A stretch of 64,000 nt of DNA from Haloarcula sp. H-GB4 (GTDB lineage: Archaea; Halobacteriota; Halobacteria; Halobacteriales; Haloarculaceae). The stretch is from positions 930,001 to 994,000 of the forward strand of contig NZ_JAVDDX010000001.1 of the NCBI RefSeq assembly GCF_030848575.1, given 5' to 3'. Shown here piece by piece: positions 3,467 through 52,321 of the stretch (position 1 is the stretch's first letter; every line of letters begins with the position of its first letter). Both the position numbers and the translations under genes were made by a program. The notes beneath the pieces were generated by a model. That model did no database searches, was not told where the DNA came from, and worked only from the letters and a program-made list of their open reading frames with translations.

Positions 3467-4783
3467 TCACTCCATAATCTCGGCAAGTCGGCGCTCGACC
3501 CGCTCGACGTTCTCTTCTAAGTCCTGTGCCATCCGGTGCTGGGTCTCGTTTGCGCCAGCCAGTTCGTCGATAGACTCGGATACCTCGGCGGCACGTTGGG
3601 CGATTTCATCGATCATGCTAGCAATCTCTTCGGCGCTTGCGGCCTGGTCGTCCGTCGCCGCCGCGACTTCGCCGATACCCTGTTCCGTCTCTGAGGTCGC
3701 GTCGACGATAGCCTGCTGGTTGTCGAGCACCGTCTCTAAGTCAGTGAGCGCCTGCTGAATCGCGCCCGTCGTCTCTTCGACGTTCTCGGCGGTGCTGTCG
3801 GCCATCTCGCGGACCTCCCCGACGATTCGCTCGACCTCGTCGGCGTGCTGTTTCGACTCGTCGGCCAGCTCTTTGATTTCGTCGGCAACGACCGCGAACC
3901 CGTCACTGTCGCTGTTGCTTCGCGCGGCTTCGATGTTGGCGTTCAGCGCCAGCATATTCGTCTGGTCCGCGATGTCGTTGATGACCTCGACGAACTCATC
4001 GATCTCCTCGATATGGCCCCGGAGTTCTGTCGAGTCCGACGCGACCTGTTCGGCGGACTCCGTCGCATCCTCGACGCGTTCGATTGTTTCCTCGGCCGTC
4101 TCGACGGATTCCTCGGCGAGTTCCCTGGCCTCACCGCTTTGGCTGCTCACTTCCTCGGCGCTGGAGGCGATTTCCTCGACGGTCGCGCTGAACCCGGAGA
4201 CTTCGGACTGGACCTCATCGAGGTTGTCGGACTGCTCGCCAGCCATCTCCTTGATTTCGTCGGACTGCTCGGTAACGGCGGCGGCGGAGTCGCCGATTTC
4301 GCCGACCGCTGACTCGACGTCTGTCGCCATCTGTGACTGGAGGTTCTGGAGCGCCTCACGCTGTTCGACGATCTCACTGAAATCGATCAGTAGCTCCAGC
4401 GCACCGATAGCATTGCCGCCAGGACCCATTAGCGGAATTGCTACCGCCCGCGCGTGTGCCATCGTCCCGTCAGGTCGCTCGGCCGAGCGGAACTCGCTTT
4501 CGCGGACTGGCTCTCCCGTTCTGATGACCTCCTGAGCAAGCGTCTCGTCCTGTCCCTCTGTGCCGAACACGTCGTATGCGTTCATCCCGACCGCCTTGCT
4601 CGCCGGCAGTCCGAGCATACGTTCAACCGTATCGTTCCAGTGTGTGATGTCGCCGTCCGCATCGACCACGAACGCCGCTTCCGGTAAGTCCTCGACGAGT
4701 GATTCGAACGTGTGGAGCCAGAAATCTCCGCTGTCGTCGACGGACTCCGGTAGCAGACCGTCTTCAGATGCAGTTTTTGCCAT
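3467..4783 (-). CDS. Soluble PAS-domain methyl-accepting transducer
   Basis: A 438-aa cytoplasmic chemoreceptor. Residues ~22-140 are a PAS domain (LVEDLPEAAFVVDADGDITHWN, then E-x-x-x-G-x-x-A-x-G and a C-terminal beta sheet). Residues ~150-430 are the four-helix MCP signalling domain with a conserved hairpin tip, [16 protein letters not shown], followed by GFAVVADEIK. No membrane segment is present, so the signal (redox, light, ligand or PAS-bound cofactor) must be sensed inside the cell and passed to CheA/CheW. The insertion SNSDSD in place of the usual AGE-G after EAAR is a small haloarchaeal variant. It lies alone on its strand, with a divergent intergenic region of 290 nt ahead of it. 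Confidence 0.92.
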   Translation of the reverse strand: MAKTASEDGLLPESVDDSGDFWLHTFESLVEDLPEAAFVVDADGDITHWNDTVERMLGLPASKAVGMNAYDVFGTEGQDETLAQEVIRTGEPVRESEFRSAERPDGTMAHARAVAIPLMGPGGNAIGALELLIDFSEIVEQREALQNLQSQMATDVESAVGEIGDSAAAVTEQSDEIKEMAGEQSDNLDEVQSEVSGFSATVEEIASSAEEVSSQSGEARELAEESVETAEETIERVEDATESAEQVASDSTELRGHIEEIDEFVEVINDIADQTNMLALNANIEAARSNSDSDGFAVVADEIKELADESKQHADEVERIVGEVREMADSTAENVEETTGAIQQALTDLETVLDNQQAIVDATSETEQGIGEVAAATDDQAASAEEIASMIDEIAQRAAEVSESIDELAGANETQHRMAQDLEENVERVERRLAEIME

Positions 4784-41071: not shown

Positions 41072-42247
41072 CTACTGTTGCAAGTCGTACAGCCGCCGGA
41101 ACGCCGTCGGGGGGAATCGCGGTTCAACACGGCTCGGCGGGCGTCCTTGACCGTTAGTGACCGTCGCTTCGACGCGGTCAACGACGCCGGATTCAGCCAT
41201 TTCGTAGAGGAACCGCTTGACGGTCCCGGCAGAGAGATCGACGGACTGTGCTGACGCAATCGCCTCTGTCGTCGCCGTCACCGAGGAGCGTTCGCTCTCC
41301 TCTAGGTCGATGAGCTCCCTGAGAACGGTCTGTCGGTTCGTCGGCAGGGAGAGAACAACACCCAACGAAACACAGGGGTTTGGAACCTCCGCGATGGCCG
41401 CGTCGACGTTGGCCTGTGTGATGCGGTCCTGACCCCGTTCTTCGGCCAGTTCTGCGGCGATGAACAAAGCGGCAAGGGCATCGTGGGCGTTGCCGTCGGC
41501 CCAGTCAGCGATATGTCTTGCCTGACCGTGATCGAGCCCCTGCTGGGCCAGCCCGTTCGAGGTTCTGGTCATCAACACGTCGACGAGCATCTGGCGCTGG
41601 TAGCGGTCAATACTAATCGACTCGGCGGTGTACCGCGTCAGTTCAGTCGTCGACGGGTCATCGCGGCCGATAGCGAGCCAGCTGACGTTGCTCGGTAAGC
41701 CGGCAAACAGGTCAACGAGTGCTGGGGCCTGAATGCTCTCCGGTTCGCTGATGTGGTCGACTGCAATGACGATGCCTGTGCGTTGTTCTCGGACCAGGTC
41801 GTGAAGCCGCGACTTGAGCGTCTCCGTCCCGATTCCGTGTTCCGGCACCGATTCGTCAACGAGTGCGTCAAGGACCGCGTGGTAGAACGCGAATTCGCTT
41901 GCGGTCTCCCGGGCGTTCACGTAGACGAACGACGGAGAGGTCGGTGGTTGCGCACGGGTCGTCGTGTGGATAATCGCCTGTTGCTCCGTCGGGAGCTGTT
42001 CTAAGTTGGCGAACAGCGCCGTGATAACCGCGGATTTCCCTGAGCCACAGGGACCATGCACGTACGCGTTCGGCGGAAGCTGCCCATCGAACACCGGGTC
42101 GAGGTGGTCGAGGAGTCGTTCGAGGACCGGACCGCGGTCGGCCGGCTCCTCTATGTGGACAACCGGTGAGATGGACTCGTAATCCTGAATGAGCCGGGGC
42201 TCACCGTTCCGGCGTTGTCGACGCTTGATTCTCGCTTCAATATCCAT
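41072..42247 (-). CDS. Degenerate Orc1/Cdc6-type AAA+ protein
   Basis: A 391-aa Orc1/Cdc6 homologue with the initiator layout: a basic N-terminus, AAA+ module (~45-290) and a winged helix (~300-390). Walker A HGPCGSGKSA is intact. Walker B reads IVIAVDHI, with His in place of the catalytic Glu, and the sensor-2 helix reads DWADGNAHDALAAL where active proteins have G-D-A-R. ATP hydrolysis is therefore doubtful. The flanking gaps are under 65 nt and hold no repeats like origin recognition boxes, so it is not at an obvious origin. It may be a regulator or a non-initiating paralogue. Confidence 0.82.
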   Translation of the reverse strand: MDIEARIKRRQRRNGEPRLIQDYESISPVVHIEEPADRGPVLERLLDHLDPVFDGQLPPNAYVHGPCGSGKSAVITALFANLEQLPTEQQAIIHTTTRAQPPTSPSFVYVNARETASEFAFYHAVLDALVDESVPEHGIGTETLKSRLHDLVREQRTGIVIAVDHISEPESIQAPALVDLFAGLPSNVSWLAIGRDDPSTTELTRYTAESISIDRYQRQMLVDVLMTRTSNGLAQQGLDHGQARHIADWADGNAHDALAALFIAAELAEERGQDRITQANVDAAIAEVPNPCVSLGVVLSLPTNRQTVLRELIDLEESERSSVTATTEAIASAQSVDLSAGTVKRFLYEMAESGVVDRVEATVTNGQGRPPSRVEPRFPPTAFRRLYDLQQ

Positions 42248-42309: not shown

Positions 42310-43392
42310 TTACGGCAGGGGGACAGCTGCGGATGTCGTGAACACTCCAGCCAGTGCCAGAATGCCCAGGATGAGGGTCGTCGTAATGATTGATGCGGCT
42401 GGCGGGTCAAAGTGCGTATCTGAGTGGGCGTAGAAGATGCGCTGGTAGACCTCACCAAATAGCGCACCCAGGATACCGAAGAACGCTCCTAGGCCGAGCG
42501 CGACCAGGACACTCGCACCGTCCGTCATCGCCATACTGGCGACGAACGTTGCCGGGAGCGTCATGTGGTGCGTAACCGGGAATTTCTCCACGCCGAGGTT
42601 CAGGAACAGCAGACTCGCTGCTGAGATACCGAATGGGAGGAAGAGACTCCCGGTTTTCGCGAAGATGTACGCACCAAGGATGCCGGTAATGAGTCCGAGC
42701 ATTGCGACGTGCGTCCACTTGTACTGGTGTGGGAGCCACGGCTCGACAGCCGGTCGTTCGGCGGCCATTCCACCATCCGTTGCGACTTCCTCACCCGACC
42801 GCATCTTGCCGCTCTCGAATGGCGACATATCCAGCAGGCTGCTGCCGCGGACACGTCCGATAACCGGGTAGCCAAAGACTAAGCGGGCGATAACAGCCGT
42901 CAGGATGACACCTGCTGCAGGCGGGTCAATCGGAACCCCGAGTCCACCGGACGTCTGTCTGATTGCCATCCCCAGGATACCGAAGACCCCACCGACAGCG
43001 AGGACATCTGGTCGGGTACCGAGGGCATAGGCGATGTCCTTCGCCGGGTGGTAGTCACCGTCGTCCGGCTCGTACATGCCGTCATACTTCGCGGCGTACG
43101 CTGCTGCTGCCACACCACCGGCGAAGGCAACGTGCGGCCCGAACACAGGGCCGAACGCCAGTGGGCCGACGATACCGGCTCCATACCCACCGGCGGCGCC
43201 CGAAATGACATCAGGAGAACCGCCGACGAACGACTCGGAAACGACGTTGCCGGCTTCACCGATAAGGACCATGAAGCCGGTGAAACAGAATGCCGGGAGT
43301 GCACCGATGGAGGCCCCGAACGCGCCGCCCGCAAACGCCGCGATGGCGAGGACGAGCATATCAACTGCCGTGAGTCCGAATGCGATCGCCAT
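42310..43392 (-). CDS. Internally duplicated membrane protein linked to glpK
   Basis: A 360-aa protein with about ten hydrophobic segments and a hydrophilic middle (~180-225). The two halves are related: residues 135-178 (GVFGILG ... IDPPAAGVILTAVI) and 302-350 (AFFGILG ... FDPPAASIITTTLI) share the F-G-I-L-G and D-P-P-A-A motifs at similar spacing. This duplication is usual in channels and secondary transporters. It starts 3 nt after glpK on the same strand, so a glycerol uptake role is the best guess, but it is not of the aquaporin family (no NPA boxes). A similar gene next to glpK is known in Haloferax. Confidence 0.78.
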   Translation of the reverse strand: MAIAFGLTAVDMLVLAIAAFAGGAFGASIGALPAFCFTGFMVLIGEAGNVVSESFVGGSPDVISGAAGGYGAGIVGPLAFGPVFGPHVAFAGGVAAAAYAAKYDGMYEPDDGDYHPAKDIAYALGTRPDVLAVGGVFGILGMAIRQTSGGLGVPIDPPAAGVILTAVIARLVFGYPVIGRVRGSSLLDMSPFESGKMRSGEEVATDGGMAAERPAVEPWLPHQYKWTHVAMLGLITGILGAYIFAKTGSLFLPFGISAASLLFLNLGVEKFPVTHHMTLPATFVASMAMTDGASVLVALGLGAFFGILGALFGEVYQRIFYAHSDTHFDPPAASIITTTLILGILALAGVFTTSAAVPLP

Positions 43393-43395
43393 CTA

Positions 43396-44928
43396 TTATT
43401 CCTCCTGTGCCCAGTCGCGGGAACGATCGACAGCGTCGTCCCAGCGGTCGTACATCTTGTCTGCCTTTCCAGCGTCCATCTCCGGCGAGAACTCCTCGTC
43501 AACCTGCCAGTTGTCCCGGAGTTCGTCGACGGTGTCCCAGTACCCAACCGCGAGGCCGGCTGCGTATGCCGACCCGAGGGCAGTGGTTTCGTCAACCTGT
43601 GGTCGAGCGATGTCCGTCTGGATTATGTCGGACTGGAGCTGACAGAGGAAGTTGTTCTTGACTGCACCACCGTCGACTCGCAGCGTCGTCATCTCGACAC
43701 CGGAGTCTTCCTCCATCGCTTCCGCAAGGTCGCGGGTCTGGTACGCGATGGACTCGAGCGTGGCACGCACGATGTGCTCCTTTCGCGTTCCGCGGGTCAT
43801 TCCGACAATCGTCCCGCGGGCGCGGCCGTCCCAGTGCGGAGCGCCGAGACCCGTGAAGGCCGGCACCATGTAGACACCGTCGGTTGATTCAACCGAGCGG
43901 GCCAGTTCCGCTGTCTGGGCAGCGTTGTTAATGAGGTCGACGTCCTCGAGCCATTCGATGGCCGCGCCGGCGATGAAGATAGAGCCTTCCAGCGCGTACT
44001 GGACGGGCTCACCGGACATCTGGAAGCCGACGGTCGTCAGCAGGCCGTTATCGGAGGCGACTGCTTCGGAGCCTGTGTTCATCAGGTAGAACGCGCCGGT
44101 CCCGTAGGTGTTCTTCGCATCACCCTTATCGAAGCAGGTCTGGCCGAACAGTGCGGCCTGCTGGTCACCCAGCGCGCCCGCAACGGGGACTTCCTCTTCG
44201 AGGAAGCCGTCCGCGTCGGTGTGCCCGTACAGACTCTCGTCGGAGGACGGGCGGACTTCCGGAACCATGGACTCCGGAACGCCGAACTCTTCGAGGAGCT
44301 CATCGTCCCACTCCATGTCGTGGATGTTGTACAGCATCGTCCGCGATGCGTTCGAGACATCCGTGATGTGGTTGCCGGTGAGCTTGTAGATGAGCCACGC
44401 GTCGATAGTCCCCATCAGGAGTTCACCGTCTTCGGCTCGTTCGCGGAGGTCAGCACCGCGCGAGCTCTGCATCTTGAGCGGCTCCGCGTTGTCGAGAATC
44501 CATTCGGTTTTGGTCGCTGAGAAGTAGGCGTCACATTCCAGCCCGGTCTTCCCGCGGATCCACTCGACTTTGTCCTCTTCCTGGATTTCCTCGACGCGGT
44601 CGGTGGTTCGGCGGTCCTGCCAGACCAGCGCGTTGTGGACAGGTTTGCCGGTCTCCTTGTCCCAGACGATCGTCGTCTCACGCTGATTCGTGATGCCAAG
44701 TGCCTCAAGCTGTTCGGCACCGACGCCTGCATCCGCCAACCCCTTGGTCACGACTTCCTGCGTGTTTTCCCAGATTTCGACGGGGTCGTGTTCGACCCAG
44801 CCGGGCTCCGGGTAGATCTGTTCGTGCTTCTCGTAGGCGTTCGCAACGACCTGGCCGCTGTGGTCGAATACCATGAAGCGGGTACCGGTCGTTCCCTGGT
44901 CGATCGCGCCAACGTATGTGTCTGCCAT
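43396..44928 (-). CDS. glpK: Glycerol kinase
   Basis: A 510-aa FGGY kinase that makes sn-glycerol-3-phosphate from glycerol. The N-terminal phosphate loop VGAIDQGTTGTRFMVFD, the glycerol-binding WQDRRT and the C-terminal LRVDGGAVKNNFLCQLQSD are all intact, and length is normal. It is first in a minus-strand operon with the duplicated membrane protein. Its promoter carries a perfect inverted repeat around the TATA box (44950-44973), so it is probably regulated by glycerol or an intermediate. Confidence 0.97.
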   Translation of the reverse strand: MADTYVGAIDQGTTGTRFMVFDHSGQVVANAYEKHEQIYPEPGWVEHDPVEIWENTQEVVTKGLADAGVGAEQLEALGITNQRETTIVWDKETGKPVHNALVWQDRRTTDRVEEIQEEDKVEWIRGKTGLECDAYFSATKTEWILDNAEPLKMQSSRGADLRERAEDGELLMGTIDAWLIYKLTGNHITDVSNASRTMLYNIHDMEWDDELLEEFGVPESMVPEVRPSSDESLYGHTDADGFLEEEVPVAGALGDQQAALFGQTCFDKGDAKNTYGTGAFYLMNTGSEAVASDNGLLTTVGFQMSGEPVQYALEGSIFIAGAAIEWLEDVDLINNAAQTAELARSVESTDGVYMVPAFTGLGAPHWDGRARGTIVGMTRGTRKEHIVRATLESIAYQTRDLAEAMEEDSGVEMTTLRVDGGAVKNNFLCQLQSDIIQTDIARPQVDETTALGSAYAAGLAVGYWDTVDELRDNWQVDEEFSPEMDAGKADKMYDRWDDAVDRSRDWAQEE

Positions 44929-44973: not shown

Positions 44974-45056
44974 ACCTTGCCAGTAAACAACATAGTGAAC
45001 CATTATAAAGATTACTAATGGTGATGTTTGGCGAGTAAAGAAAGGACGGGGCGGCG

Positions 45057-47603
45057 CTACCGGTCGGAATCGTACCGCTCAAGCTGCTTTGTGACCTGTG
45101 TGTCGAGTCGATCGAGCGCGGACGGGACTGAATCAGGCCCGTCCATACTGTCGACGGCATCTTCGATGATTGTTCGAACCGTATCGAACGGGCCGATCTG
45201 CGCGCCCCGCGTCGCCGTGGTGTCACGTGTTTCCGTGAGCTGGTCGAATGCCGTTCGGTAGTGTGGGTTCTGTTCGAACCAGTCCGCCGACCGGAGCTGT
45301 GGAATCGTTTCCTCGTGGACGGGGAAATATCCAGTTTCTTGATGCCACCGACGCTGCTGAGCCGGTTCGGTGAGCCAGGTGAGGAACTCCCCGACAGCGT
45401 CGTGCACGGCTTCGGAAACTTCATCGCCGACCCAGAGCGATGCGCCGCCGACGAGTACGCCGGTCCGGTCGTCTAGTACGGGGAATCGGCCGGTCCCGAC
45501 ATCGAAGTCGGCGCTGCTTTCGATGCTGTTCAGCGACGACGTCGAGCCGATCAGCATCGCAGCGTCCTCCTCGGTGAAATGTGTCCGCGCCGCTCCTCTG
45601 GCTTCAATACCGGGGTCGTGGTACAGTCCGTCCGCTTCGAGGCCCTGCCACCATTCGAACAGGTCGTGGGCGAACTTGCCGTCGAGATTGCTCTCGGCCG
45701 GCGATCCGGATCGTCCGTTGTTTTTGTCTACGAGGAGCTGGTCAGCTTCGGCAAACCACTGCTCGACGAACCACGAGTAGTTCGCGAATGTGATACCGGT
45801 ATCCACGCCACTCCTGTCGACGAGTTCCTCAGCCGCGCTCCGAACGTCAGCGAAGGTTTCCGGCGGTGAATCGGGGTCGAGTCCAGTCTGTCTGAACGCG
45901 TCGCGGTTGTACGCCATCACTGGATTCGATGCGTTGAACGGCAGCGAGTGGAGCGTCCCGTCGAACCGGTAGTAATTCGTCACCGGGTCAAGCAGCGAGT
46001 CGATGTGGGCTGTCGGGAGGAGTTCCTCGACGGGTCTAAAGTATCTACTGTCGCGCGCACGCGTAGTGCCGATCTCAAATATCTGTGCGATTGCCGGCGG
46101 GTCACCGTTTTCGGCGGCGTTTAGCGTCGCATCGAGAGTTCCGCGATAGCTCCCTTTCGATCGCAGTGCGAGACTGATGCCGTCAGTCTGTGATTCGAAC
46201 TCACGAACCAGTTCTTCGAGCAGTAGCGCCTTCTCACCGCCCATCGCGTGCCAGAACTCGACGACGGTCCCATTCGTGTTAGTCGCCGCTGCACCGGTCG
46301 CCAGTTCGAAGGAATCGAGCGATGCATCCAGTGATTCGGCTCGCTCGGTGAGCGTCGAGACACGCGTCGAGACCTCCGCGAGTTCCGTCGTCTGGTCCGC
46401 TGCGGCGTCGGCGGCGACGGCCGCTTCTTCGGCCGTCCGGGCGCTTATGCCTTCAACATCGTCGACCATCGACACGACTTCCTGCGTGGAATCGGCCTGC
46501 GTATCCGTCGCATCATCAATTTCCTGTACGCTCGAATCAACTTCCTCAACCATCGAGACAACGGAATCCAGTTCATCGAGCGCGCTGGCGACTGATGAAC
46601 GAGTGTCTTCGACGCTTTCCCGGGTGTCGTACATCTCCGAAACCGTTGCGTCGGCCTGTTCGTGCACCTCCTGAATGGAGGCTGCAATCTCGTCGGTCGC
46701 TTCCTTCGTCTCGGTTGCGAGTGATTTGACCTCCTCAGCCACGACAGCGAACCCGTCGCCGGATTCCCCTGCTCGGGCCGCTTCGATGTTGGCGTTCAGT
46801 GCCAGCATATTGGTCTGGTCCGCCACATCCGTGATGAAATCCACAATCTCCTCGATATCCGACAGCAGGTCGTTCAGTTGTTCGACCTTGTCGACGGTCG
46901 CTTCGGCGTTGTCGGTCAACTGGTCAAGCGTCGTCATCGCCGAGGACGCCGACTCCAGTGCGGATTCGCCTCGAACGCTGGCTTCGCCTGATATGTCCGC
47001 GACCTCGTTTGCGGCGCTCGCTATCTCCTCAATCGTCGCTGAGAGGTTCCGCATCTCGTCGGAGATCGACTGGATCTCGTCACGTTGCTCGTCAGACCCG
47101 GTGGCAATCTCTCCGACGGCACCGCTCACATCCCGGCTAGCGGATTTGACTGACCCGATGCGGGTGTCGACCTGTTCCGTTGCGGCGGTCACCTGTTCGC
47201 TGAACGACGCCATCCGGTCGACGGTGTCTGTCCACTCTCGGAGCAGTTCACCGTATGCCTCGTACAATGGTTCAGCCGCTTCCGTTGGTGGCTGCCCGGG
47301 CTTCGCAGTCAGGTCGCCGTCGGCGTTTGCCGCAGCAACAGAAGTGAGACGGTCGACAGCGGTTTCAAGTGCGCGACGCTCCGCCCGCTCCTGTTCGAGT
47401 TCCGCCGCCAGTTGCTCACACTGTGCTTTCAGTTCCGCCCGCTCGGGGTCGCTTTCTGTTTCCCCGGCCGCTTCGTGGAGGGCTTCTGTCGACGACCTTT
47501 CACGCTCCGACTCGCTTTCGTCCCGTCCCTCTGTGACGCCACCGTCGGTGCGTTCCCCATCGGGCCGGCCATCTTCTGAATTAAGTGGGTTCCATTTACT
47601 CAT
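45057..47603 (-). CDS. Cytoplasmic transducer fused to a UgpB-like glycerol-3-phosphate-binding domain
   Basis: An 848-aa protein from the ATG at 47603 (MSKWNPLNS); the frame extends to 47651 without similarity. No membrane segment or signal peptide exists. Residues ~50-435 are an MCP signalling domain with a complete tip, [18 protein letters not shown], plus a leading acidic coiled coil. From ~445 to the end is a whole periplasmic binding protein fold of the UgpB type: [14 protein letters not shown], a loop [27 protein letters not shown], and later [18 protein letters not shown] and TRGAQIGPF. Tyr, Glu, Ser, Trp and Arg at places used by UgpB for glycerol-3-phosphate appear kept. It lies 128 nt upstream of glpK and divergent to glpA, so it probably reports internal glycerol-3-phosphate to CheA. 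Confidence 0.9.
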
Positions 47604-47953
47604 TGTTACTCTCGCTGGCCAAACGGCCAACACGGTCTCGCGGATAATCAACTATCAAAATACATAATAGTTACTGTTGGGTAGGCGGTAGTGATAATTA
47701 AAGTTTGAGAGAGGTAATTACGGATAGAATAGAAATACGCAGCCGAGTAAGTTTAATATTTAATTTCATTTTCAACATTCGAGCAGTTGTGTACGATCAC
47801 TCGAACAACTATTCATTGAAATTTAAACTGTGGGGCGTTCACAACCAACAGTGCAGATCGCCGGTATTCCTCATGATTACATAGAAAATTTACTACCCAA
47901 GCACCAGCAACGGTAAAGTGAAGTGCGTGCGCTCCAAAACCACGGAAAGATAG
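47604..47953. other. Divergent control region between the transducer and glpA
   Basis: 350 nt, AT-rich, with no gene. It holds TATA-like boxes for both directions (47819-47827 and 47886-47895 towards glpA; 47692-47700 towards the transducer) and the repeats at 47778-47805. This is the likely switch point of the glycerol region. Confidence 0.6.
47778..47805. repeat. Paired half-sites in the glp control region
   Basis: TTCGAG (47778-47783) and CTCGAA (47800-47805) are inverted copies whose starts are 22 bp apart, i.e. about two helical turns. The sites also read as a loose direct repeat (TCGAGCAGTTGT, TCGAACAACTAT). They lie just upstream of a TATA-like box at 47819 and could be an operator for glpABC. 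Confidence 0.45.
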
Positions 47954-49684
47954 ATGGGACCGACACCACACATCGCCGTCATCGGTGGCGGCTCGACTGG
48001 GGCGGGCATCGCGCGGGACCTCGCGATGCGCGGGCTCGACGTAACCCTCGTAGAACAGGGGAATCTGACCCACGGGACCACCGGTCGAATGCACGGGCTA
48101 CTCCATAGCGGCGGGCGGTACGCCGTTTCGGATCAGGCCAGTGCGACCGAGTGTATCGAGGAAAACCGGGTGCTGCGGGATATCGCAAGCCACTGTGTCG
48201 AAATGACCGGCGGCTTGTTCGTCAAGCGACCGGAGGACTCCGAGGAGTACTTCCAGAGGAAGCTCAGCGGCTGTGAGGAATGTGGTATTCCCGCTGAAGT
48301 CGTCTCTGGCGAGGAAGCCCGCGCGATGGAGCCACATCTGGCCAAGGACATCGACAAGGCCATCAGCGTCCCTGATGGGGCTATCGACCCGTTCCGGCTG
48401 GTGGTCGCGAACGCCGCGAGCGCACAAGAACACGGCGCACGCATCGAGACACACTCCAAGGTTACCGACCTCATCGTCGAGAGCGGCGAAGTTGTCGGCA
48501 TCGAGGTCGAACACGACTCCGGTCCCGGAAAGCGCGTCCACGGTACCGAAGGCGGAACCGAGGAGATCCAGGCCGACTACGTCGTGAACGCGACGGGAGC
48601 CTGGGCCGGCCGCATCGGCGACATGGCCGGACTGGACATCGAGGTCCGTCCCTCTAAGGGAGTCATGACAATCATGAACATCCGCCAGGTCGACACCGTC
48701 ATCAACCGCTGTCGGCCCAAGGGCGACGCCGACATCGTCGTGCCCCACGAGACGACCGCGATTCTGGGCACGACCGACGAAGAGGTCGAGGACCCCGAGG
48801 ACTACCCCGAAGAGCAGTGGGAAGTCGACATGATGATCGACACCCTCTCGGAGCTGATTCCGATGCTCGACGATGCCCGCACCATCCGCTCGTTCTGGGG
48901 CGTCCGTCCGCTGTACGAACCACCGGACGTCGGCAGCGACGACCCGACGGACATCACGCGGGACTTCTTCTTGCTCGACCACGACGAGCGCGACGACCTG
49001 CCCGGCATGACCAGCATTGTCGGCGGGAAGTTCACGACCTACCGGATGATGGGCGAGCAGATTGCTGACCACGTCTGCGGGAAGTTCGGCATCGACGCCG
49101 ACTGTCGGACCGCCGACGAGCCACTGCCGGGCAGCGAGGACTTCTCGGTGCTGCGGGACTACATGGACGAGTTCGGGCTCCGGTCGCCGATTGGTCGTCG
49201 GAGCGTCGAACGGCTCGGCTCACGAGCCGATGACGTGCTCAAGACCGACGGGCCGAACCCGACGGTCTGTGCGTGTGAAGGCGTCACCCGAGCCGAGATT
49301 CAGGACGCTATCAAGGGATCGGGCTCGGACCTCAACGCCGTCCGCATCCGGACCCGTGCGTCGATGGGCAACTGTCAGGGCGGCTTCTGCTCGCACCGGA
49401 TGGCGAGTGAACTCCACTCGGAGTACGACGAGCCGGTCGTCCGCGAGGCCTGGGATGAACTGCTACAGGAACGCTGGAAGGGCCAGCGACACGCCCTCTG
49501 GGGCGAACAGCTCTCCCAGGCGGCACTGAACTACGCACTGCACGCCACCACGCAGAACCGCGACCAAGACCCGGCGGACGGCGACTCGGTGGACTTCTCG
49601 GCGTTCGATTCGGGCCGCGGGCAAACGGGCGGGAGCGTCGACAGCGCGGACGTAGCCGCTGACGGAGGGACAAATGGCTATTGA
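47954..49684 (+). CDS. glpA: Anaerobic-type glycerol-3-phosphate dehydrogenase subunit A
   Basis: A 576-aa flavoprotein that oxidises glycerol-3-phosphate to dihydroxyacetone phosphate. The FAD site [21 protein letters not shown] opens the protein. The last third has a BFD-like [2Fe-2S] motif, CACEGV ... MGNCQGGFC, as in bacterial GlpA. It is first of the glpABC operon and overlaps glpB by 11 nt. In haloarchaea this complex is the main route from glycerol into triose phosphates and passes electrons to the quinone pool via GlpC. Confidence 0.95.
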
Positions 49685-50948
49685 GTCGGAGGTACTCGTC
49701 ATCGGCGGCGGCCTCGGCGGGCTGACCAGCGCGCTGGCGGCCGCCCGTGAGGGGGCTGACGTGCGACTGGTCTCCTACAAACAGAGCACGCTTCGACAGG
49801 CGTCGGGTCTGGTAGATATACTTGGCTACACGCCGGACGGCGACGGCCCACTGACCGATCCGTACGAGGCGATTCCGTCGCTGCCGGAGGCTCATCCGTA
49901 CCGGAAAGTCGGTGTCCAGACGGTCCGGGACGCACTGTCGCTGTTCGACGACGCGGTTCCGACCTACGAAGGTGAGCACACGGACACGAACGCGCTCCTA
50001 CCTACCCACGGCGGGAGTATCAAACCGACCGCCCGCTACCCGGCCGGAGCCAGCGCCGGCCTCGCTAGCGACACCCGCGACACGCTGCTGGTCGGCATCG
50101 AGGAAATGGTCGATTTCGACGCGCCCCACGTCGCTGCCCATCTCGACGCGACGGGCGTGCCCTTCGATGTCCGCGGCGAGACAATTCGGTTCCCGGGCGA
50201 CCTGCGCGCAGACGCAAAGGTCACGCGGTATGCAAAACTTCTCGATACCAACAGCGAGGTGGCGGTTCGCGGGCGAATGGTTCCGGCCCGCGAAGCCCTC
50301 GCCCAGCGCGTGAACCCGCTGCTGGAGGACGAAGAGCGGGTCGGCTTCCCGGCGATTCTCGGCGACGACAACCCCGGAGCCATCCGCGACGCACTGGGTG
50401 ACCACCTCGGTGTCGACGTGTTTGAGGTCCCGATGGGGCCGCCGTCGCTGCCCGGCCTCCGACTGGAGGACGCCCTGTTCTCGGCGCTGGACGAGGCCGG
50501 AGCCAGCATCGAGACCGGCAACCCTGTCGTCGACTTTGAGGGCGAAGACCGCATCGAGAAGGTATTCATCGAGAAGAACGGCGCGAAGATTCCCAACAGC
50601 GCCGACCAGTACGTCCTCGCGACCGGCGGCTTCGTCGGCAAGGGCGTCGAGTCCGACCGCGATGGGGTGTACGAGCCGGTGTTCGACTGCCACGTCCCCC
50701 ACGCCGCGGACCGCTACGACTGGTTTGAGGGCGAACTGTTCGGCGACCACGAGTTCGCTCGCTACGGCGTGGCGACCGATGATGACCTGCGGCCCCTTGA
50801 CGCAAGCGAGCATAGCGAGTTCGAGAACCTGCGCGCTGCCGGCTCCGTACTGGGCGGCTACGACTTCGCCGCCGAGAAATCCGGTAGCGGGGTCTCGATC
50901 GCAACAGGCTACGCGGCGGGCCAGCGCGCCGCACAGGAGGCACGATGA
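49674..50948 (+). CDS. glpB: Glycerol-3-phosphate dehydrogenase subunit B
   Basis: A 424-aa second flavoprotein subunit of GlpABC. It starts with the FAD motif [24 protein letters not shown], and a second Gly-rich region near the C-terminus ([12 protein letters not shown] ... [10 protein letters not shown]) closes the FAD fold. It overlaps glpA by 11 nt and glpC by 4 nt, so the three subunits are tightly coupled. Confidence 0.93.
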
Positions 50949-52321
50949 GTGACGCTGAAACCCCACCAGAGACAGATTTTGACCCGGTAGCACCGAACAC
51001 AGGCGAGGAGTTCGAACCAGTTGATGTCTTCCCCGACAGCGACGACTTCGACCTCCGGCCCGGCGCGGACTCCTGTTTCAAATGCTCGACCTGCGACACG
51101 AACTGCCCCGTCGCGGAGGTCGACGACGATTTCCCCGGCCCGAAGTTCCAGGGTCCCGAACAGTGGCGACTCAAGCAGTCCGACGACGACCACGAGATCG
51201 ATGACTCGGTGATGGACTGCTCGAACTGCATGCGCTGTGACAACGCCTGCCCGTCGGGCGTCCCGCTCAGCCAGATGCACAACACCGCCCGCGGGGAGTA
51301 CGTCAGCGAGCAGATGGACAAGCTCTCCGTCGAGTACATCCGGAACCGCATTCTTGCGAACTACCGCACTTCCGCGTTCCTCGCGAGTAAGGTCCCCCGA
51401 CTCGCGAACTTCGCCATGAACTTCGGGCCGGCCCGCTGGGTGATGGAAAAGACGCTCGGCGTTACCAGCGAGCGTGACTTCCCTGCCTTCGCAAAACAGA
51501 CCTTTCGCGATTGGTGGGCCGACCGCGGCGGTCAGGTCCAATCACGGGAGAACGCGAGAGCCGCCCGAAAACGGCGTGGACTCCCTGAGGATGCCGACAA
51601 GAAGGTGGCGTATTTCCACGGCTGTTACTCCAACTACAACACGCCGGAGGTCGGCAAGGCGATGGTTCGGGTGTACGAGGAGTTCGGTTACGAGGTCGTC
51701 GCGCCCGAGCAGAAGTGCTCCGGAACACCGATGTTCGCCAACGGGATGCTTGACGACGCCCGCCGCCACGCCGAGACGAACGTCTCATCGATGTCCGAGC
51801 TCGTCGATGAGGGATACCGCGCCATCGCCTCCTGTACCTCGTGTTCGATGGCGCTCCGACAGGAGTACCCCGAACTGTTCGATATTGACGGCGTCGACAA
51901 AGTCGCCGAGAACACCTTCGAGGCTGTCGAGTACCTCCGCATTCACGAAGACCTCAAGGGTGAAGTGCAGGCGGCCGACGTAGACGGCGACCTCGCCGAA
52001 GAGTTCGCCTACCACGCTCCGTGTCACTCACGCAATCAGGGACTCGACCGCCAGGCCGTCGAACTATTCCGCGACCTCGACGGCGCCGAAGTCGAGGACG
52101 TCGGCGACTCCTGTTCTGGCATCTCGGGAACCTATGGCTGGAAAGAGGAGAAATACGAGAAGTCGATGGAGATTGGCGAGGAGATGTTCGAGCACATGGA
52201 ACACGCCGAAGGTGAAACTGGCATGACCGAGTGCCCGACCTGCGCGATGCAGATGGAACACGGCAGCGGCTACGAGATCCGACATCCGCTTGAACTCCTC
52301 GAAGCCGCGCTTGTAGAGTAA
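50945..52321 (+). CDS. glpC: Glycerol-3-phosphate dehydrogenase subunit C
   Basis: A 458-aa iron-sulfur subunit. Two [4Fe-4S] motifs are seen: CFKCSTCDTNCP near 44-55 and CSNCMRCDNACP near 91-102. Two heterodisulfide reductase-type CCG domains follow (FHGCYSNYNTPEVGK and APCHSRNQGLD, each with further Cys such as SCTSCS and CSGISGTYG). GlpC links GlpAB to the membrane quinone pool. Last gene of the operon. Confidence 0.93.
   Translation: MSDAETPPETDFDPVAPNTGEEFEPVDVFPDSDDFDLRPGADSCFKCSTCDTNCPVAEVDDDFPGPKFQGPEQWRLKQSDDDHEIDDSVMDCSNCMRCDNACPSGVPLSQMHNTARGEYVSEQMDKLSVEYIRNRILANYRTSAFLASKVPRLANFAMNFGPARWVMEKTLGVTSERDFPAFAKQTFRDWWADRGGQVQSRENARAARKRRGLPEDADKKVAYFHGCYSNYNTPEVGKAMVRVYEEFGYEVVAPEQKCSGTPMFANGMLDDARRHAETNVSSMSELVDEGYRAIASCTSCSMALRQEYPELFDIDGVDKVAENTFEAVEYLRIHEDLKGEVQAADVDGDLAEEFAYHAPCHSRNQGLDRQAVELFRDLDGAEVEDVGDSCSGISGTYGWKEEKYEKSMEIGEEMFEHMEHAEGETGMTECPTCAMQMEHGSGYEIRHPLELLEAALVE

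Follow-up and report, generated by a model that had tools for sequence, protein, structure and literature searches.

A soluble haloarchaeal chemoreceptor carrying a C-terminal UgpB-type solute-binding domain and encoded between glpK and glpABC

Introduction

In the BasB-BasT and CosB-CosT systems of haloarchaea, a separate, exported binding protein works with a membrane receptor. To our knowledge, few internal chemotaxis signals are known at the ligand level. The 44H hairpin class is dominant among archaeal chemoreceptors, and the main text of a 2022 survey names SBP_bac as one type of sensor domain among them and also covers cytoplasmic receptors in which the sensor domain is C-terminal (PMC9680633). 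The ligands of UgpB, to which the domain reported here is related, include sn-glycerol-1-phosphate (G1P) in addition to sn-glycerol-3-phosphate (G3P) (PMC12718374). In UgpB of Phaeobacter, the phosphate of G1P or G3P is contacted by Tyr64, Ser143, Ser266, and Tyr342 and the hydroxyls by Glu88, Gly303, and Arg393, while Trp188 and Trp191 form a clamp (PMC12718374). Mutagenesis indicated that the tryptophans matter for the binding of G3P and G1P, and the clamp has been tied to the transition from relatives that bind phosphodiesters to the binding of G1P and G3P (PMC12718374).

We analyzed a stretch of 64,000 nucleotides of Haloarcula sp. H-GB4 (the window; contig NZ_JAVDDX010000001.1, positions 930,001 to 994,000), in which a single frame encodes a chemoreceptor followed by a UgpB-type domain. 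An earlier note on this DNA had called the domain order undescribed, which holds in part only. Given that SBP_bac sensors and C-terminal cytoplasmic sensors were already listed in the survey, the fusion is of a known kind, to which it adds a variant; UgpB, this protein, and a link to glp genes are not named in the survey's main text (PMC9680633), and literature searches found no description of an MCP-UgpB fusion.

Domain Organization of the Fusion Protein

The fusion gene and the parts of its product are as follows.

45057..47603, minus strand: fusion chemoreceptor gene, one open frame of 848 aa with ATG at 47603
47451..47603, minus strand: acidic disordered N-terminus, residues 1-51 (pLDDT <50)
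47283..47447, minus strand: helix 53-94 and start of a HAMP-like segment, residues 53-107 (motif ADGDLT)
46308..47282, minus strand: antiparallel chemoreceptor coiled-coil hairpin, residues 108-432 (Pfam, predicted structure, and 2ch7 match)
46728..46826, minus strand: CheA/CheW-contact tip, about residues 260-292 (invariant alignment columns)
46269..46307, minus strand: linker, residues 433-445, ~15 aa (low confidence in the model)
45060..46268, minus strand: UgpB-type solute-binding domain, residues 446-848 (profile and structure matches)

The earlier reading of one frame with an MCP tip and then a UgpB-like stretch was borne out by Pfam, which matched MCPsignal at residues 219-386 (E 5.6e-41; 140.7 bits vs. 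a curated cut-off of 34.6) and SBP_bac_8 at residues 464-783 (E 5e-34). The NCBIfam UgpB model covered residues 433-843 (E 1.8e-61) with 208 bits, below its equivalog cut-off of 411 bits. The best solved relative of the C-terminal part was E. coli UgpB (4aq4; E 2.9e-53), matched end to end, and the N-terminal part matched the T. maritima MCP 2ch7 (E 8.5e-20). The HAMP-like segment, called in the window protein by motif only, runs on to about residue 125; its consensus in the alignment of the fusion family is ADGDLTxR...N.L, with G96 invariant, and a membrane-anchored relative (L067) has a Pfam HAMP match at 166-207.

In a structure model of the window protein, built from 30 fusion homologues, residues 1-51 are disordered, 53-94 form a helix, and 108-432 form a long helical hairpin; a confident two-lobed domain comes last, with the linker region 428-442 predicted to be disordered (pLDDT <50). 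The earlier note had also called for a structure prediction of the C-terminal domain, and the modeled domain has the UgpB fold: it was superimposed on 6x84, the open W169S/W172S form of UgpB, with a Z of 52.9 and an rmsd of 1.5 Å over 402 residues, and on the ligand-bound forms 4aq4 and 9lff with Z of 47.8 and 46.8, respectively. As the pTM of the whole model was 0.54, the placement of the domain relative to the hairpin is not settled by the model.

Distribution among Haloarchaea

The binding domain was found in 117 of 392 genomes searched from the order of the window. About 60 of the 392 carry the fused frame (61 have the domain in an open frame of ~800 aa or more), including Haloarcula japonica, H. 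amylolytica, H. vallismortis, H. argentinensis, and Halomicrobium katesii, and every one of the 49 fusion loci that were fetched encodes the MCP part in the same frame. No match outside the window's own order was found in 393 genomes sampled across the phylum. The haloarchaeal search suggested earlier thus recovered the same fusion repeatedly, and because of this recurrence a sequencing error or a chance join of two genes was rejected as its source.

In one draft Haloarcula genome (G230, locus L091), the reading frame of the fusion is interrupted after 482 codons, which is either a pseudogene or an assembly error.

The glp Locus

The neighborhood of the fusion gene contains the following features.

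43396..44928, minus strand: glpK, glycerol kinase (NCBIfam TIGR01311, over cut-off)
47954..49684, plus strand: glpA, divergent neighbor (NCBIfam equivalog)
49674..50948, plus strand: glpB (NCBIfam equivalog)
50945..52321, plus strand: glpC (NCBIfam equivalog)
42310..43392, minus strand: polytopic membrane protein after glpK, 7 hydrophobic segments (hydrophobicity)
41072..42247, minus strand: Cdc6/Orc1-like AAA protein (below replication-initiator cut-offs)
47661..47675, minus strand: promoter-like element AGTAACTATTATGTA upstream of the fusion gene (conserved in Haloarcula relatives)
44999..45022, no strand: palindrome ACCATT-N12-AATGGT, overlapping the promoter-like element of glpK (45002-45016, minus strand)

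The position of the gene between glpK and glpABC (47954-52321, plus strand), as read earlier, was confirmed, since all four neighbors passed their NCBIfam equivalog cut-offs; glpK lies 128 bp downstream of the fusion gene on the same strand. Across the family the linkage holds in part. A glpK gene was found ≤3.5 kb from 16 of the 49 fusions vs. 1 of 31 stand-alone genes (p 0.0016, not corrected for relatedness), in the Haloarcula group, L050, the group of L065, L066, L067, L072, and L073, and L081, with at least three gene arrangements, but at 33 of the 49 loci no glpK occurred within the fetched flank. The mere co-occurrence of glpK and the fusion in a genome says nothing, because glpK is near-universal (330 of 392 genomes, with or without the fusion). 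The conserved neighbors of the fusions away from glp genes (a glycogen-phosphorylase-like gene, an amino acid permease, and TrkA) had no common theme.

The polytopic membrane protein of 42310-43392 had no Pfam, NCBIfam, or PDB match. It is present at 14 of the 49 fusion loci, where it stands beside glpK, and may belong to a new family of glycerol facilitators or transporters. In several clades, the gene for the Cdc6/Orc1-like AAA protein likewise recurs next to the fusion and glpK; this protein is an unusual partner for a glycerol locus and is possibly a regulator. The promoter-like element of glpK is conserved in Haloarcula relatives, and the palindrome over it, which is perfect and the sole match in the window (0.01 expected), is a possible operator. 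The pattern AGTAA-N3-TTAT is common to the promoter-like regions of the fusion gene and glpK; as a shared regulatory motif it is a lead only, having been derived from these same two sites.

Predicted Ligand-Binding Site

The Phaeobacter contacts were carried to the window protein via alignment to 9lff and E. coli UgpB. The predicted phosphate contacts Y486, S559, S687, and Y759, the predicted glycerol-hydroxyl contacts E510, G720, and R810, and W611, which corresponds to W172 of the E. coli clamp, were identical in all 49 full-length fusion rows. The two-tryptophan clamp is nevertheless incomplete in the fusions: the position of W169 is N608 in the window protein and is occupied by Asn in 39 and Thr in 10 of the 49 rows. 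Of the 416 alignment columns, 83 are near-invariant, and these include eight of the nine contacts (Fisher p 1.4e-5, relatedness ignored). Among the stand-alone relatives, E510 is kept in 21 of 32 and R810 in 25 of 32, so the glycerol-hydroxyl contacts are guarded more strictly in the fusions. The stand-alone proteins have Asn at 608 as well, and the W169 tryptophan was thus lost before the fusion. This loss may lower the affinity or admit other ligands.

A supposed loss of UgpB Arg374 in the fusion was rejected, as alignment to the numbered contacts identified the equivalent residue as the invariant R810. Three positions, A/P607, Y/H609, and R/W669 (window 45597-45785, minus strand), are fixed differently in fusion and stand-alone proteins; the first two lie on either side of the W169 position, where the pocket may be changed.

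Internal G3P had been proposed earlier as the obvious ligand. It is only one of the candidates, given that the W169 position is Asn or Thr in every fusion, that UgpB also binds G1P (PMC12718374), and that most loci have no glpK nearby. Most probably a glycerol-phosphate group is present in the ligand, which would be either the G3P made by GlpK or G1P. The latter is the archaeal lipid precursor.

A receptor of the same architecture could, however, have as its ligand some other phospho-metabolite or a larger phosphodiester, such as a glycerophosphodiester released during lipid turnover: with Asn or Thr in place of W169, one half of the tryptophan clamp is missing, and the phosphate contacts kept in the fusions are common to binders of glycerophosphocholine and dinucleotides. 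We regard such a ligand as rather unlikely, since the residues that would hold the glycerol hydroxyls (E510, R810, and G720) are invariant and the linkage with glpK recurs in several clades. It is improbable that the domain senses no small molecule any more and instead serves to dock a partner protein (e.g., GlpK) or just to position the receptor: the flexible linker and the adjoining glpK of some clades would suit such a role, but the domain's ligand contacts rank among its best-conserved positions, and most fusions have no glpK close by.

Cell Location and Origin

The window protein has neither a signal peptide nor a membrane segment, as the highest mean among its 19-residue Kyte-Doolittle windows was 0.93; in this respect the earlier description stands. 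A hidden export signal was rejected, as there is no hydrophobic segment and no lipobox; lipoboxes were found in none of the 49 fusions, whereas all 32 compared stand-alone relatives have a twin-arginine-type start and a lipobox, i.e., the look of Tat lipoproteins. From this lack of export features we infer that the binding domain sits in the cytoplasm, which supports the earlier view of a soluble receptor with the UgpB fold at a cytoplasmic C-terminus.

Three fusion relatives (L065, L067, and L072) have an N-terminal membrane segment ahead of the MCP part, in the order membrane segment, MCP, and binding domain. There is no second crossing past the MCP, which places the binding domain inside the cell; thus, the same internal binding domain also occurs on membrane-anchored receptors. 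That topology, together with fusions in which no signal, lipobox, or membrane segment was found, makes it very unlikely that the receptor is exported or exposed at the surface and binds its ligand outside in the manner of UgpB, even though the stand-alone homologues all look exported.

A tree rooted with E. coli UgpB (a long branch) was built from 50 fused and 32 stand-alone domains; in it, the fused domains formed one clade (SH-aLRT 100) nested among the exported stand-alone UgpB-like proteins, and the fusion therefore probably arose once in haloarchaea. An ABC permease gene was found near 21 of 31 stand-alone loci but near none of the 49 fusion loci (Fisher p 4e-12, not corrected for relatedness). 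Taken together, the nested clade and the contrasts in lipobox and permease suggest that an exported transporter component was probably captured once; it would have lost its export signal and transporter and become joined behind a chemoreceptor hairpin.

Proposed Role

The genome encodes about 16 chemoreceptors, and CheA is represented by one match to its dimerization domain (H-kinase_dim), over the cut-off, in a 668-aa frame. The hairpin tip, which would meet CheA and CheW, is invariant in the fusion alignment, and a long antiparallel coiled coil is predicted at residues 108-432. With moderate confidence, we propose that the fusion acts as a soluble chemoreceptor, gauging a phosphorylated three-carbon metabolite of the cell interior and reporting it to CheA. 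Binding of the ligand would close the two lobes of the UgpB-type domain, and this closure, via the short linker, would affect how the hairpin packs or moves close to the HAMP-like base. The changed hairpin would then alter CheA activity and swimming reversals. The narrower proposal, that a once-relocated binding protein reads intracellular G3P or G1P so that cells steer by their glycerol or lipid-precursor pool, we judge to be evenly balanced.

Two other soluble chemoreceptors were noticed. One lies within the window (3596-4123, minus strand; 438-452 aa) and has no membrane segment. The other, elsewhere in the same genome (L190; G000:C2:1179828-1180379), has ~220 extra residues past the hairpin; no Pfam match was found in these, and by eye their STGIDGLDDLCGGGL motif recalls KaiC/RecA-type domains.

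If the proposed role is true, cells may steer by an internal metabolite of the glycerol-phosphate type, not by outside conditions. The binding fold within the receptor is well studied, its ligand pocket is readable, and enzymes that produce and consume the probable ligand are often encoded alongside, which makes metabolism-steered swimming directly testable in an archaeon. The fusion would also show how transport proteins can turn into internal sensors.

Comparison with Known Systems

The fusion domain has the same fold as UgpB of the UgpBAEC transporter (4aq4, 6x84, and 9lff) over its full length, with all the phosphate contacts, the glycerol-hydroxyl contacts, and W172 present. UgpB is, however, a periplasmic sn-glycerol-3-phosphate-binding protein, whereas the fusion domain sits behind a chemoreceptor without an export signal. 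The fusions also differ from UgpB in having no adjoining transporter genes and in the replacement of W169 by Asn or Thr, and the identity between the fusion domain and UgpB is 28-30%, with a score below the NCBIfam equivalog cut-off. The closest sequences to the fusion domains are stand-alone haloarchaeal UgpB-like lipoproteins (e.g., L092 and L118), with up to about 53% identity, which differ in their Tat-lipoprotein N-termini and their neighboring ABC permease and ATPase genes.

Like the archaeal cytoplasmic chemoreceptors with a C-terminal sensor described in the main text of PMC9680633, the fusion is soluble and consists of a hairpin followed by a ligand-binding domain; that main text, unlike the present analysis, contains no relation to UgpB, binding-site analysis, origin, or glp linkage. 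The fusion resembles BasB-BasT and CosB-CosT in that a solute-binding protein would feed a chemoreceptor in haloarchaea. In contrast to these systems, the binding protein here is part of the soluble receptor itself.
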